Shown: positions 721 through 7,140 of the stretch, piece after piece
How the letters are laid out: every line of letters begins with the position of its first letter
Position numbering within the stretch: the stretch's first letter is position 1
NCBI GenBank assembly: GCA_030705925.1
Contig: JAUZPM010000020.1
Coordinates: 1-34,949, forward strand
Length of the DNA: 34,949 bases
Origin: Bacillota bacterium
Lineage (GTDB): Bacteria; Bacillota; Clostridia; Oscillospirales; Feifaniaceae
Direction: 5' to 3'
Position numbers and translations under genes: made by a program
The notes under the pieces: model-generated
Database searches by the model: none
Seen by the model: only the letters and a program-made list of their open reading frames with translations
What the model was told of the DNA's origin: nothing

Positions 721-2157
721 ATGAAAAACATATTATTATTATTTTTTGACCAAATGAGATTTGACGCTATACACAATAGCTGTCTCCAGACTCCGCATAT
801 AAACGAACTAATAAAAGATGGAGTTTTTTTTAAACGAGCATATACACCGTCTCCTGTCTGCGTTCCTGCGAGAGTTTCGATGAATTATGGTATATATCCG
901 AATACATCTGGATGCTATGATAATAGCAACTGTGTTATTGAAGGACATAAAAATATTTTTGAGGTTTTATCGGAAAATGGATATCATACTGAGGGTATCG
1001 GTAAAATGCATTTTTCTTCCGATAAGTATGCTCTTCATGGTTTTACAAACCGGCAAACTCAAGAAGAGATATTTTCTCCTGGCGATAATGATGATTACCG
1101 CAGGTATCTTGATGAAAACGGATATGATTATGTTTTCGATGCACATGGGCAGAGAAGTGAGATGTACTACATCCCTCAAATATCTCAGCTTCCAGCTAAA
1201 CATCATCCGACGCAATGGGTTGGTGACAGATCAGTAGAGTTTATAGATAAATATAGCTCTGATAAGCCATTTTTGCTAATGTCTTCATTCATTCATCCTC
1301 ATCCTCCTTTTTCACCACCAACACCTTGGAATAAACTCTATAGAATGGGTGATATGCCTGCGCCTTTTGTCCCGGATGGCTACCTCCAGCTTCTTACATA
1401 TTATAATAAAAAACAAAATCGCTATAAATGTATTGACGATGGAGTTAATAATTATACTGTACTGACCCTGAAGGCATACTATTATGCTTGCATATCATTT
1501 ATTGATTATCAGATCAGACGTATTATAGAAACACTTAAAAATAGAGGGCTCTACGATAGCACACTTATTATATTCGCTTCTGACCACGGCGAATTGTTAG
1601 GGGATTATAATTCATACGGAAAAAGAACAATGCTTGACTCTGCGTGTAAAATACCATTATTTTTGAAAGCACCAAATTTAATGGCAGGTAAAGTATGCGA
1701 TAGTCCAGCGTCTCTTATCGATATAATGCCTACAATTCTAACTTATGCCGGTGTTGAATATGCTGATTTAGCTCTTCAAGGTGAGGATCTTATCTCTGTC
1801 GCAAATGGGGCTTCTAAGAGAGCTTGTGTTTTTTCGCAGCTTGGCAGTAATGAAAATGGCCTTTATATGATCGCAACCAAGGACGAAAAATATATAAGGT
1901 CTGAACCTGATGCAATGGATTATTATTTTTACGGAACTCGGCAAGAGGAAAGAAACCAGTTTGATGAATTAAGAGATAAAGCAGAAAAATTAAAAAATAG
2001 CTTGCTGGCTCAATATTTAAAAAAGGAAAGGTTTTTAAATAATGAACCCAGAAAAATATCGGATGATAAAAGGACGGGACACATTTTTCAGGATCATATA
2101 GGGCTAAGAGAACGGGAAAAAATCATACCTAATGGGTATAGGGTAGACTTAAGATAA
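721..2157 (+). CDS. Sulfatase family protein (Cys-type)
   Basis: A 478-residue alkaline-phosphatase-superfamily sulfatase, predicted to hydrolyse a sulfate ester. The C-x-P-x-R signature is C47-V-P-A-R51; in this family the Cys is converted to formylglycine by a maturase (anSME), and none is encoded in the window. The N-terminal metal Asp is D10 in LLLFFDQMR, and a second metal motif S-D-H-G-E is at 287-291. There is no signal peptide or membrane segment, so a cytoplasmic enzyme is likely, as in choline-sulfatase or aryl-sulfatase relatives. The substrate cannot be read from the sequence. AGGAG (701-705) is 15 bases from the ATG, longer than usual, but no better start is seen. It is a single gene with its own promoter, convergent with the broken LTA-synthase-like gene. 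A phosphoesterase is less likely because of the intact CxPxR. Confidence 0.88.
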   Translation: MKNILLLFFDQMRFDAIHNSCLQTPHINELIKDGVFFKRAYTPSPVCVPARVSMNYGIYPNTSGCYDNSNCVIEGHKNIFEVLSENGYHTEGIGKMHFSSDKYALHGFTNRQTQEEIFSPGDNDDYRRYLDENGYDYVFDAHGQRSEMYYIPQISQLPAKHHPTQWVGDRSVEFIDKYSSDKPFLLMSSFIHPHPPFSPPTPWNKLYRMGDMPAPFVPDGYLQLLTYYNKKQNRYKCIDDGVNNYTVLTLKAYYYACISFIDYQIRRIIETLKNRGLYDSTLIIFASDHGELLGDYNSYGKRTMLDSACKIPLFLKAPNLMAGKVCDSPASLIDIMPTILTYAGVEYADLALQGEDLISVANGASKRACVFSQLGSNENGLYMIATKDEKYIRSEPDAMDYYFYGTRQEERNQFDELRDKAEKLKNSLLAQYLKKERFLNNEPRKISDDKRTGHIFQDHIGLREREKIIPNGYRVDLR

Positions 2158-2188: not shown

Positions 2189-3175
2189 TTAATGCCATAG
2201 ATCTTCGAGAGCATATCTTTTTCCGAAAATCGAGTCGTAATTTATTATACGGGCTTTTTCAAAGACGTCTTTTGGTGAATCTTTAAAGCTTCCTATTTTT
2301 CCGTCTGGAGTTACTGTTATTCCGTTTTGGATGATAGGCAGCTCGGACCCAATTTGCGAAAGCAGGCTAAAATAAGGGTTTTTAGGAAGACCCGCAAAAT
2401 CAAGAACTGAATATGAAAGTGATGAGTATTGGTGCCCTTCGCAGTTTGGAATCTTAGCATCATAGTTTGACCAAAATACAACTGGTGTAAATTTGTTGAT
2501 TAATGAATCAAAATACTCTGAATTTCTATCAATATAAGGACTCACAGAGGTTTTTGCAGATAACTTGTTTAGTTCAATTCCTTTCAGCGCTGGAAAATGG
2601 TCGCCGAAAAATACAATATTAACGGGTCTGTCGACAGTTTTAAAGTAATCGATAAGCGTTTTTAAAGACGCGTCAGCGTCACTGATGCCTTGAGAGTAGC
2701 ATTCAAACATTCCTGTTTTATAACTACCCAAGCCGTTTCCAGTAATTTTGATATCGTTTTGACCGTAAACGCCTTTGCTATATGGGAAATGATTTTGCAT
2801 TGAAACACCAAATACAAAAAGTGGTTTATCATCAGCAGAATATTTTTGATACTGTGCAATGATTTGATGTACAAAATAATCATCGCTTGCATAATTGCCT
2901 TTTTTACTGACATCTTTCATATCTTTTATAGTTACAAAATTATCAAATCCTATCAATGGATACACTTTATTTCTATTCCAAAAAGTAGAGACATATGGGT
3001 GTACTGCAATAGTGGTATAGCCATATTCTTTCAACAGCCTAGGAAGTGACGGCAAAGGCTGTTTAATGTATTGAGAATAGGCAATGCTTCCGCCGGGCAA
3101 AAATGCAGTGGACAGCCCGGTAAGCGCCTCAAATTCAACGTTGGCAGTTCCGCCTCCAACTTCACTAGAAGCCAT
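2189..3175 (-). pseudogene. LTA synthase-like sulfatase-fold protein, C-terminal half
   Basis: This is the extracellular catalytic part of an LtaS-family (lipoteichoic acid synthase / phosphoglycerol transferase) protein, separated from its N-terminal half by one in-frame TAA. The open stretch carries the nucleophile motif G-G-G-T-A-N (Thr at residue 10 of this piece), M-Q-N-H-F-P (127-132) and the metal motif G-D-H (191-193), all typical of LtaS. The ATG at 3175 has no Shine-Dalgarno sequence, so separate translation is unlikely. Six sense codons upstream of it (S-G-N-A-F-T) continue the family alignment up to the stop. Alone it lacks the N-terminal metal Glu and any membrane anchor, so it should not be active. 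A sequencing error is the main alternative to a true nonsense mutation. Confidence 0.8.
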
Positions 3176-3193
3176 AGTAAAAGCATTGCCGCT

Positions 3194-4093
3194 TTACATA
3201 AGTGAGTGAACAGTTGGCAAAGGATCTTTACTGAATCTAAGGCCGTTAACGTTCGTTATATCCCAAAATGATTCACTCAGTATCATAATTATAACTGGTT
3301 TATTTTTAATATCTAATTTAGGCTCTAAGTTTTTATTATATGATTGAATTACTTCCTTACTATAACTTTGTGGCTTGGAAACATGCATATACTGTTCATT
3401 AATAACGAATGAAAGAAAAAAACCATTTCGTTCGTAACTTGTTTTTTGATCCCACAGCATGGTTTTAGCACCTGATTTTTCAATCATCTCTGCAAAAGGC
3501 GATTTCCAAAAATTAAAAATGGAAATCAAGAAAAACAAAGATAGACATATAGATGCAAGCCGTATCGGCAAATGAGATGGTAAGAATTTTTTTAGGCAAA
3601 ATTTTATATTAGACTTAATTACTTTTTTAATTATTGCAATGATAACAGCTATAAGTATAAGGGAAATTAAAGTAATAATAAGATAAAAATTTATCCCGCC
3701 TACCATTACTTTTAGGCTCCAGAGGCCTTCGGAAATTTTGGATGTATCCCATGGCAAAACTGGCACCCCCATATTGGATAGTTTAAGGTATTCAACTGCT
3801 CCAATAAATAAAGTTATTAATATGTATGTTATATAAGTAGCTTTAAAGCGGCCCGATAATCCATAGATTAATACGATTATTGAGAGCCAAATAAGGTAAT
3901 TGAAGATAACAATAGGGACGTTATTTATTATCCATTTTAGAATAACGCCGAAACCTTTGTTTACAGCATATAAATCTATATACTGCAATAAAAATAGCGA
4001 TATAAAAGGCAAAAATAACAGGATCAGAATATTAAAAACAGATATAAAAGCATTTTTAGATAACAGGATATTTTGCTTAAAAAAGTTTTTCAA
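3194..4093 (-). pseudogene. LTA synthase-like protein, N-terminal membrane half ending at an in-frame TAA
   Basis: About 300 codons with five predicted hydrophobic segments, then the start of the sulfatase-fold domain with the metal-ligand region I-L-S-E-S-F-W-D. Reading stops at TAA (3194-3196). The same frame continues past it into the catalytic half, giving about 630 codons in total, normal for LtaS-type enzymes that polymerise glycerol phosphate on the outer membrane face. The start is probably TTG at 4093, because AGGTGA lies five bases upstream; a GTG at 4102 sits inside that ribosome binding site. The promoter is at 4129-4157. With the stop between the metal Glu and the nucleophile Thr, neither half has a full active site. 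The hydrophobic segments match a polytopic LtaS anchor. Confidence 0.8.
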
Positions 4094-4128
4094 AATATTC
4101 ACCTGCTGTTACGTTTATTTAATATATT

Positions 4129-4888: not shown

Positions 4889-5335
4889 TTAAGCATTGAC
4901 TGGTGCTTTTTGGAATTTTTTAAGCCAGGATAATGTTTCTAAAGTTTTTTCGTAAAGATTCATGGCTTTATTTTCGTCAATAAAGCGTTCCATTACACGT
5001 TTATATGAAAAAGGATAATCCGACATATAGTAAAACATGAGATCAATAATAAAATCCTCATAATTGTCTTTTTCTTCTTTTAAACGCTTGCCTACTTCTG
5101 TATCAGCAAGTTTGGGGTGTTGAGACAATGTATTTATTAAGTAAGGCAGATTATGAGACTTTGGCGCGTCTTTCCCGGTATGGCAAACAAACATACCCTT
5201 GACTAATCTTTCAACAGACTGCTGGCATAAAAAAGCCACATAAGCCCAACGCTTACATTTAATAAGATCTGCTGCAGTTTGTATATCGTAATCTGAGAGG
5301 TATACCCAATACTCATATTTTTCGTAAGATGTCAT
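4889..5335 (-). CDS. HEPN domain protein
   Basis: 148 mostly helical residues of the HEPN family (PF05168 type). It has the typical pattern of an N-terminal helix with Y-x-x-A-A-D, a central C-Q-Q-S-V-E-R-L-V-K-G helix, the K-S-H-N-L-P-Y-L segment and a C-terminal D-Y-P-F-S-Y-K-R helix. The R-x4-6-H RNase motif of toxic HEPN proteins is not evident, so this may be a non-nuclease partner. It is the last gene of a four-gene operon and overlaps the HD-GYP stop codon by ATGA; GGAGG eight bases upstream supports the start. HEPN proteins commonly pair with MNT nucleotidyltransferases, and one is encoded two genes upstream. Its action here is unknown. Confidence 0.8.
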   Translation of the reverse strand: MTSYEKYEYWVYLSDYDIQTAADLIKCKRWAYVAFLCQQSVERLVKGMFVCHTGKDAPKSHNLPYLINTLSQHPKLADTEVGKRLKEEKDNYEDFIIDLMFYYMSDYPFSYKRVMERFIDENKAMNLYEKTLETLSWLKKFQKAPVNA

Positions 5336-6255
5336 TTTGAAGCCTCCGTTGTGTCTAATTCACCGCTTTGGACAATTTCGTCTAGCGCCTCTGCAACTTT
5401 TTTATCATATAATTCTGGAAGACTTAATAACTCTTTAACAGCATCTTGAAATGAACGCGGTTTATTGTAGGTCCTTTGGCTTGTTATTGCATCAAATGAA
5501 TCTGCAACGGCAATAATTCTTGCCTCAATACAAAGATCTGAACCTTTTAAACCATAAGGGTATCCGCTTCCGTCAAGACGTTCATGATGGCATTGAGCTA
5601 TATACGCGATTTCATGACCAAAACGCGGCTCTAAAAGTCTTCGGCTTCCAATGGGGTGTTTAATAATTTGTCTGTATTCTTCACTTGTTAAAGGACCAGC
5701 TTTTTGCAAAATCTCATCTGAAAGGGAGCATTTCCCAACATCATGGAATAGCGCAGCGACTACAAGGTTTTGGGTTGAAATATCATTAAGTCCAAGTTTC
5801 TCAGCAAGTGCAACTGAATACTGCATAACCCTGCGGCCATGACCGCGAGTGTACATATCCTTAGCCTCAACTTTATCCGCCAAAGCCTGAAGATCATCTC
5901 TAAAACATGCTAAGTCAACGAAAAGAGGGGTAGTGACAACATAGAGCATTTTTAGATCCTCTTTGCTTGACATTAGAACTGTTTTTTTTAGCCCCTTAAC
6001 ATAAAATGAATCATTTTGAGCAAGTTCTATTAGATCGTTCTCATTATGTAAAGTTACCGAACCGCTTAAAATATAAAAAAACTCCACAGTATCCGGATTT
6101 TCTGCTGGGTCAATCCACATTGCCGAGCCAGCCGGGACAGACTGCAACATTACCTCAACACTGTTTTCGTCACTGCCGAGTTTTGAAAGCAGTTTAACGA
6201 ATAATCCCGGTTGACGGCTTGCTCCATCATCCCGGTTAACTGTAATAGCGGACAT
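5332..6255 (-). CDS. Cupin/HD-GYP domain phosphodiesterase
   Basis: 307 residues: an N-terminal cupin-like beta-barrel (about 30-110) and an HD-GYP domain (about 122-295). The catalytic signature is complete: H139 in Y-T-R-G-H-G, H171-D172-V-G-K, H223-H224-E, and D228-G-S-G-Y-P-Y-G-L. HD-GYP enzymes hydrolyse cyclic-di-GMP (some 3'3'-cGAMP), so a soluble phosphodiesterase is predicted. The cupin could sense a small ligand, or could resemble the cyclic-nucleotide-binding fold; it lacks an obvious full set of metal-binding histidines. GAGGTG just upstream supports the ATG. It lies between MNT and HEPN genes in one operon whose leader holds a cyclic-di-GMP-I riboswitch, a direct link between enzyme and regulator. 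Substrate choice between the two dinucleotides is inferred. Confidence 0.88.
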   Translation of the reverse strand: MSAITVNRDDGASRQPGLFVKLLSKLGSDENSVEVMLQSVPAGSAMWIDPAENPDTVEFFYILSGSVTLHNENDLIELAQNDSFYVKGLKKTVLMSSKEDLKMLYVVTTPLFVDLACFRDDLQALADKVEAKDMYTRGHGRRVMQYSVALAEKLGLNDISTQNLVVAALFHDVGKCSLSDEILQKAGPLTSEEYRQIIKHPIGSRRLLEPRFGHEIAYIAQCHHERLDGSGYPYGLKGSDLCIEARIIAVADSFDAITSQRTYNKPRSFQDAVKELLSLPELYDKKVAEALDEIVQSGELDTTEASK

Positions 6256-6285
6256 TTTTCACCTCAAAAATCAGCTTTGAGATTG

Positions 6286-6624
6286 TTATATTTCAGTTAT
6301 ATCGGTTCCGAACTCGATAATCTCTTCAACTATGCCAGCAGGCTCTAAAAGCTCATCCTGATTAAAAACCTGGACTTGAATATCTTTGCCATATTCAGAG
6401 CATATTTTTACAGCGTTTTTATAAACACTTTTTAGGTTATTGTTGCATTCTGATAAAAATATGGCGATATCTATATCGCTGTCCTTTGAATAGGTGCCTT
6501 TACTAAAAGAACCGAAAAGATAAATCCTATATATCAGCAAATTAGCTCGCAATTTTGGAATAAGATTATGTAAAATTGATGAAATCTGTGTAGGTAAATG
6601 TTTTGTCATTTGTTCGATAATCAA
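6286..6624 (-). CDS. MNT-type minimal nucleotidyltransferase
   Basis: 112 residues with the polymerase-beta-fold signature G38-S39 followed by D50-I-D52 (in S-K-D-S-D-I-D-I-A), and a likely third Asp at D81 in K-D-I-Q-V-Q-V. MNT proteins transfer NMP groups; partners of HEPN proteins can AMPylate them. The start is TTG at 6624, overlapping the preceding stop (TTGA), with AAGG seven bases upstream; an ATG five codons later lacks a ribosome binding site. It lies between the secreted-protein gene and the HD-GYP gene. The MNT/HEPN genes are separated here by the HD-GYP gene rather than adjacent, which is unusual. Whether it acts as an antitoxin or a signalling transferase is unknown. Confidence 0.85.
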   Translation of the reverse strand: MIIEQMTKHLPTQISSILHNLIPKLRANLLIYRIYLFGSFSKGTYSKDSDIDIAIFLSECNNNLKSVYKNAVKICSEYGKDIQVQVFNQDELLEPAGIVEEIIEFGTDITEI

Positions 6625-6938
6625 TAAGCCGCCTTAAAAGGATCGATTGTAACTGTTTGACCGTCAACTTCGTATGTTTTATCTTCGCAGATGACTTCTC
6701 CGCCTTCTTTAGCAACTTTAGCTTCAACTTTATCAGTAATTTTGCCTGTTTTGTCAGTAAGCTTATCTACGTCGACTTTATCAGTTGCTTGTGCTTTTTC
6801 AACAGAAGACTCAACTTTTACGTTTGCTTTGTCGATTGTTTGATCAATTTTGTCTTCAGTTGATTGGGCAAAGGCTCCAAAACTGAATAAATTAGCACTA
6901 ACCAAAAGTGATAAGACAACAGATACAGTTTTTTTCAT
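6621..6938 (-). CDS. Small secreted Lys/Asp-rich protein
   Basis: 105 residues with a clear Sec signal peptide: M-K-K, a hydrophobic core (about 4-20) and an A-F-A cleavage site after A24. The mature part (25-105) is hydrophilic, with repeated D-K and V-D/V-E units (T-D-K, V-D-K, T-D-K, I-T-D-K-V) that suggest an extended helix or coiled coil, ending in a short beta-like segment (T-Y-E-V-D-G-Q-T-V-T-I). I do not recognise a named family. AGGAGGG ten bases upstream supports the ATG. It is the first gene after the riboswitch and overlaps the MNT start. A cell-surface or matrix role would suit cyclic-di-GMP control but is inference. Confidence 0.7.
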   Translation of the reverse strand: MKKTVSVVLSLLVSANLFSFGAFAQSTEDKIDQTIDKANVKVESSVEKAQATDKVDVDKLTDKTGKITDKVEAKVAKEGGEVICEDKTYEVDGQTVTIDPFKAAY

Positions 6939-6964
6939 AAATAAAACCCTCCTATTATTTTGAA

Positions 6965-7140
6965 TATAAAAGGCAACTGACTGTCAGTTGCCTTACAAAC
7001 ATAATAACAGGAAAGGTTTAGCCTATTCCGCTTAAATTGTTTGGCAACTGGCTGCCATAGGATAATCCCTTAGGCCCTTTAGTTTTGTGCCCCTGTCTTT
7101 CAACAGGTTTACCATTTACATGGAGATACATTTTGTATCT
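6965..7140 (-). ncRNA. Cyclic-di-GMP-I (GEMM) riboswitch leader
   Basis: The minus-strand leader carries the GEMM-I hallmarks. GGTAAACC (about 7113-7106) is followed by a helix capped by a GAAA tetraloop (TGTT-GAAA-GACA), then GGGGCACAAAACT, GGGCCTAAGG and a 3' ATGGCAGCCAGTTGCC ending at 7043. Apparent pairing of GGT with ACT replaces the usual GGC with GCC. The aptamer spans about 7122-7043. Downstream, AAGGCAACTGA / TCAGTTGCCTT (6994-6970) with T-rich sequence after it forms an intrinsic terminator. Its first arm GGCAACTG is also complementary to CAGTTGCC of the aptamer 3' end (7050-7043), giving mutually exclusive structures. This suggests ligand binding favours termination (an OFF switch). 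The transcript starts near 7140 with a small extra hairpin. Confidence 0.87.

Follow-up and report, generated by a model that had tools for sequence, protein, structure and literature searches.

Enzymes of the LtaS and GacH kind build glycerol-phosphate surface polymers, and the active domain in the LtaS family works outside the membrane, as is established for LtaS. The gene described here lies in the window, by which the whole analysed stretch of 34,949 nucleotides is meant, and its frame is cut by one internal stop. When the piece downstream of that stop was compared with solved structures, the best match was the GacH-type phosphoglycerol transferase (PDB 5u9z, 5wcx, and 6dgm; E 9e-20), with an alignment covering residues 4-294 of the 334 in the piece, while LtaS and the primase LtaP (PDB 4uoo, 2w8d, 4uop, and 2w5q) matched at E 5.8e-12 to 2.2e-7. 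The relation to GacH is distant, the likeness is one of sequence, and the window's frame, unlike GacH, carries an internal stop. A membrane part and a PF00884 domain are common to LtaS, LtaP, and the window gene. However, the downstream piece, scanned on its own, scored only 54.4 bits against the cut-off of 970 of the NCBIfam LtaS equivalog NF053595, and neither piece, tested separately, reached the score by which a true LtaS is recognised. The name "LTA synthase-like", given in the first-pass annotation, was refined to LtaS/GacH-like: the solved structures nearest to the downstream piece are of the GacH type, with LtaS behind them.

Interrupted genes of this kind have also been described as a class. 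PMC7918605 argues that purifying selection acts on many in-frame stops of bacterial genes, and sequencing errors and pseudogenes are named there among the sources of such stops. The window gene resembles the class treated there in having one in-frame stop in a frame that is otherwise conserved; it differs in that the stop was seen in one genome, whereas the class, as that study defines it, has the stop at the same place in at least two genomes.

The interrupted frame runs on the minus strand from 4102 to 2189 and is open except for a single internal TAA at 3196-3194. The first-pass annotation, which gave no strand, had claimed one in-frame TAA in an otherwise continuous frame, and this proved correct for the minus strand; the plus strand of 2189-4093 holds many stops. 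The features needed below are as follows.

721..2157, plus strand: arylsulfatase/choline-sulfatase-like gene of the PF00884 superfamily, open, 478 aa, convergent with the broken gene
2189..4102, minus strand: interrupted frame of the putative LtaS/GacH-like phosphoglycerol transferase, 638 codons including both stops
3197..4102, minus strand: upstream piece, with the membrane segments and the first part of the catalytic domain, including the presumed metal-binding Glu at residue 277
3194..3196, minus strand: in-frame TAA, codon 303, with a sense codon in 37/37 aligned relatives
2189..3193, minus strand: downstream piece, with the remaining catalytic domain (Thr 319, His 438, and GDH 500-502)

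The TAA is codon 303 of 638, a count that includes the internal and the final stop, so that 302 codons precede it and 334 follow. Two starts in the same frame were considered, GTG at 4102 as the alternative and TTG at 4093, which is codon 4. As an AGGTG-like ribosome-binding site was seen by eye just upstream of the TTG, a start at 4093 is likelier than one at 4102, and the upper coordinate of 4093 given earlier fits the TTG start.

The family of the encoded protein was read from both sides of the stop. The downstream piece alone matched PF00884 (Sulfatase) with 110.9 bits at a cut-off of 25, and when the search tool translated past the stop, the match over the whole place reached 123.7 bits. 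The upstream piece gave no Pfam family of its own and nothing in NCBIfam. Because the downstream part matches PF00884 by itself and relatives align across the TAA in a single frame, the continuity of the frame across the stop is not a product of chance. By homology across the stop, the gene is a predicted LtaS/GacH-like phosphoglycerol transferase, and the domain, the Glu/Thr/GDH residues, and the N-terminal membrane part expected of this branch of the PF00884 superfamily are all present, with the residues split by the stop. The open gene at 721..2157 belongs to the same superfamily, and its product is a separate enzyme.

To measure how far the gene is damaged, the window protein, its stop written as X, was aligned with 37 relatives, giving 38 rows. 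The relatives were BLAST matches at E <= 1e-4 with open stretches of at least 200 codons, and came from 35 loci, two of which supplied a pair of proteins each; neither copies of the window gene nor a duplicate of its paralogue were included. They are the best matches only, in that the order-level loci were taken from the top genomes and not from all 68 genomes with a match. The stop column held a sense codon in 37/37 relatives, of nine kinds and mostly polar, and is a variable position. The TAA thus stands as a nonsense pseudogene would have it, inside a conserved domain and at a place where every aligned relative has a sense codon.

Among columns with at least 80% agreement in the relatives, the window protein kept 1/1 in residues 1-200 and 8/8 in residues 201-302, and after the stop 40/42, the exceptions being residues 308 and 494. 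Glu 277, Thr 319, His 438, and GDH 500-502 were all retained. By analogy with LtaS, we take Glu 277 to be a metal ligand and Thr 319 the nucleophile, and the GDH motif to have a catalytic role. The first-pass annotation had placed the metal Glu before the stop and the Thr and the G500-D501-H502 motif after it, and these fell in near-invariant columns of the 38-row alignment; its remark that other damage is absent also agrees with the conserved columns. When all rows were ranked by their mean identity to the rest of the alignment, the window protein came 17 of 38 in the catalytic domain on both sides of the stop, as would be expected for a member that had been functional until lately. In the membrane part its mean identity was the lowest (37 of 37), and in the tail it ranked 32 of 36, which could reflect a divergent subfamily or a longer, somewhat older decay. 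The genus search returned the own genome alone, and across the sampled genomes even the best relatives reached no more than 43% identity over the downstream piece.

The reading we prefer, and consider probable, is that one nonsense change has recently inactivated a chromosomal gene whose product would be an LtaS/GacH-like phosphoglycerol transferase anchored in the membrane. Translation begun at 4093 or 4102 would end at 3196-3194 and yield a membrane fragment that lacks the nucleophile, and the downstream piece would either go unmade or stay in the cytoplasm without the metal Glu, so that no enzyme would result. The search for another LtaS gene elsewhere in the genome, which had been proposed earlier as a check, found an LtaS-like paralogue on contig C2 with an open frame of 623 residues, 36% identical over the downstream piece, and this paralogue may cover the need for the activity. 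The single stop, the homology to either side of it, the kept conserved residues, and the open paralogue were observed directly; we infer that the stop is present in the living genome, is recent, and ends expression, and that the paralogue has the same function. Fresh inactivation, readthrough, and sequencing error had been the three readings offered before, with a lean to a recent event; this lean is supported, the conserved columns showing no other evident damage.

The distribution of the gene was examined at several levels. In the family, 6/8 searched genomes, the own genome being among the 8, had no match at E <= 0.001, and 2/8 had one. In the order, a match was found in 68/147 sampled genomes, which were drawn from a larger group. 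Therefore, absence of the gene is common among relatives. A scan of genome contigs gave three distant loci, titled Clostridiales, Acetoanaerobium, and Clostridia. If the stop is real, the gene would be a case of gene loss caught at one moment, in a family of surface-polymer enzymes without a match in 6/8 of the searched family genomes; if it is an error, it would serve as a warning against taking isolated stops in draft genomes as biology. The case is an ordinary one, and neither outcome would be surprising.

The main rival is a consensus error or a strain polymorphism: the TAA would have arisen when the consensus was built, or would be the allele of a minority strain taken up in a mixed-population assembly, and most cells would carry an intact gene. 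We consider this possible, though unlikely. The genome is a draft of 2,246,379 bases in 115 contigs with a completeness of 95.34%, and the frame lacks a second stop, both of which suit an error. To see how often isolated stops occur in this assembly, five families were searched in the own genome, giving 118 domain matches, in which only stops inside the matched stretches were detectable. A stop was found in 1/5 Sulfatase matches, namely the window gene, and in 1/62 ABC_tran matches, while MFS_1 (0/8), Radical_SAM (0/19), and BPD_transp_1 (0/24) matches had no internal stop. The second nonsense thus came from 113 matches of the four other families. It lies on contig C7 at 27245 (locus L104), in the frame of an ABC-transporter ATPase that spans 241 residues from stop to stop; its single TAG, at residue 102, is inside the ABC_tran domain, with ABC_tran homology on both sides. 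This case shows that isolated nonsense lesions occur elsewhere in the assembly.

If the C7 stop were an error, the density would be about 4e-4 errors per base, with a 95% interval of 1e-5 to 2e-3. This value was calculated from the single nonsense seen over 54,873 matched bases and from the 4.4% share of substitutions that lead to stops; the window gene, which had been found first, was excluded. An accurate short-read consensus usually has far fewer wrong bases than the central 4e-4, and a draft consensus could reach the lower end of the interval. Real lesions are therefore favoured, though the interval extends to plausible error rates. A further point against an error is that the Pfam matches obtained for the remaining genes of the window showed no second split domain, in an inspection that does not amount to a systematic frameshift test.

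A codon-usage scan was applied to a sample of 270,503 bases, which consisted of 12 stretches and the window. It gave 108 same-frame adjacencies, among which the window's case ranked only 17th; codon bias is too weak to rank candidates for interrupted frames. Both pieces of 5 of the 21 listed candidates were searched in Pfam, and no domain was shared across the stop; in two of these 5 pairs neither piece had a family in Pfam or NCBIfam. In a stretch on the minus strand of contig C10 (L084:4401-5645), same-frame open stretches of 219 and 195 codons are separated by one TAA. Neither had a Pfam or NCBIfam match, and they may be two genes or one interrupted gene.

Readthrough of the TAA at some level, which would yield a full-length enzyme, was another of the earlier options, and the present results make it very improbable. 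It would suit the kept catalytic columns and the position of the stop at a variable, mostly polar, and tolerant site. PMC7918605 does propose that bacteria often read through conserved in-frame stops, but only stops common to two or more genomes were taken there, and the window stop was seen in one. Moreover, TAA is the commonest terminator here, ending 22/31 other window genes and 82/116 long stop-to-stop frames in the 270,503 sampled bases, where the 82 include both pieces of the broken gene. Forty tRNA genes were found with Rfam on 39 loci, for which ARAGORN gave the anticodons. No anticodon for UAA was present among the 40 tRNAs, in a set that looks incomplete (for example, none is labelled Ile). 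As for release factors, the genome encodes two PCRF-domain proteins.

The relatives point the same way. A readthrough site would be expected to show the stop at the same place in orthologues; 0/37 aligned relatives, none of them a close orthologue, had it. In the matched stretches of relatives, one stop was flagged in the order search (G100) and one in the class search (G205), which covered 391 genomes and was limited to matches at E <= 1e-40; both stops are at the extreme C-terminal end. In G048, where the match came in two pieces, the aligned stretch had no stop. The order and class searches were queried with the downstream piece only, and the position of the stop itself was covered by the alignment with the 37 relatives. 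The idea that the stop is conserved in relatives was rejected on these grounds, and there is no sign of a conserved readthrough site in the sequences compared.

The pieces might instead be translated separately and assemble into a split enzyme, in which case reinitiation at the first in-frame ATG (3175), only 18 bases past the TAA, would give the downstream one. This short distance is in its favour; all the same, we hold the proposal to be extremely improbable. At that ATG no ribosome-binding site was seen, which agrees with the earlier remark on the second half. The active domain of LtaS is extracellular, which makes a split enzyme unlikely. The upstream hydrophobic segments are centred at residues 29, 62/73 (overlapping), 149, and 187, which are segment centres and not a count of membrane passes. 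By hydropathy, the downstream piece has no such segment, its top 19-residue mean being 0.87 versus 1.67-3.19 for the upstream ones. A two-piece enzyme outside the cell is therefore implausible, and the split enzyme was rejected, as the downstream piece lacks both a hydrophobic segment and the metal Glu, and no ribosome-binding site is evident for it.

A switchable control on a surface-polymer enzyme through partial TAA readthrough or downstream reinitiation, with the C7 TAG ATPase as a second case of such leaky termination in this lineage, would be highly speculative and is most doubtful. Reassignment and suppression were both dropped as unlikely, since the 40 tRNAs found include none for UAA and most genes here end in TAA; reassignment of UAA to an amino acid has only the single window case on its side, is contradicted by the terminator counts and by the internal TAA in just one of the 118 domain matches of five families, and may be put aside as next to impossible.

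Several observations concern the surroundings of the gene. The window, which is C20:1-34949, opens within the 3' end of a 23S rRNA gene, which is followed by 5S rRNA. A promoter scan gave 14 sites versus 10.7 (sd 3.3) in shuffles, which is no signal. On the minus strand at 7123-7040, a c-di-GMP-I riboswitch was found with 78.3 bits, upstream of a run of four genes in 4889-7123. The four genes behind the riboswitch encode a 105-aa protein, a small nucleotidyltransferase (PF18765/PF01909, with a weak match to PADLOC PDC-S09), an HD_5 protein that also matches cupin below the threshold, and a protein with a HEPN domain. It struck us as unusual that a HEPN/nucleotidyltransferase pair should stand under a c-di-GMP riboswitch.
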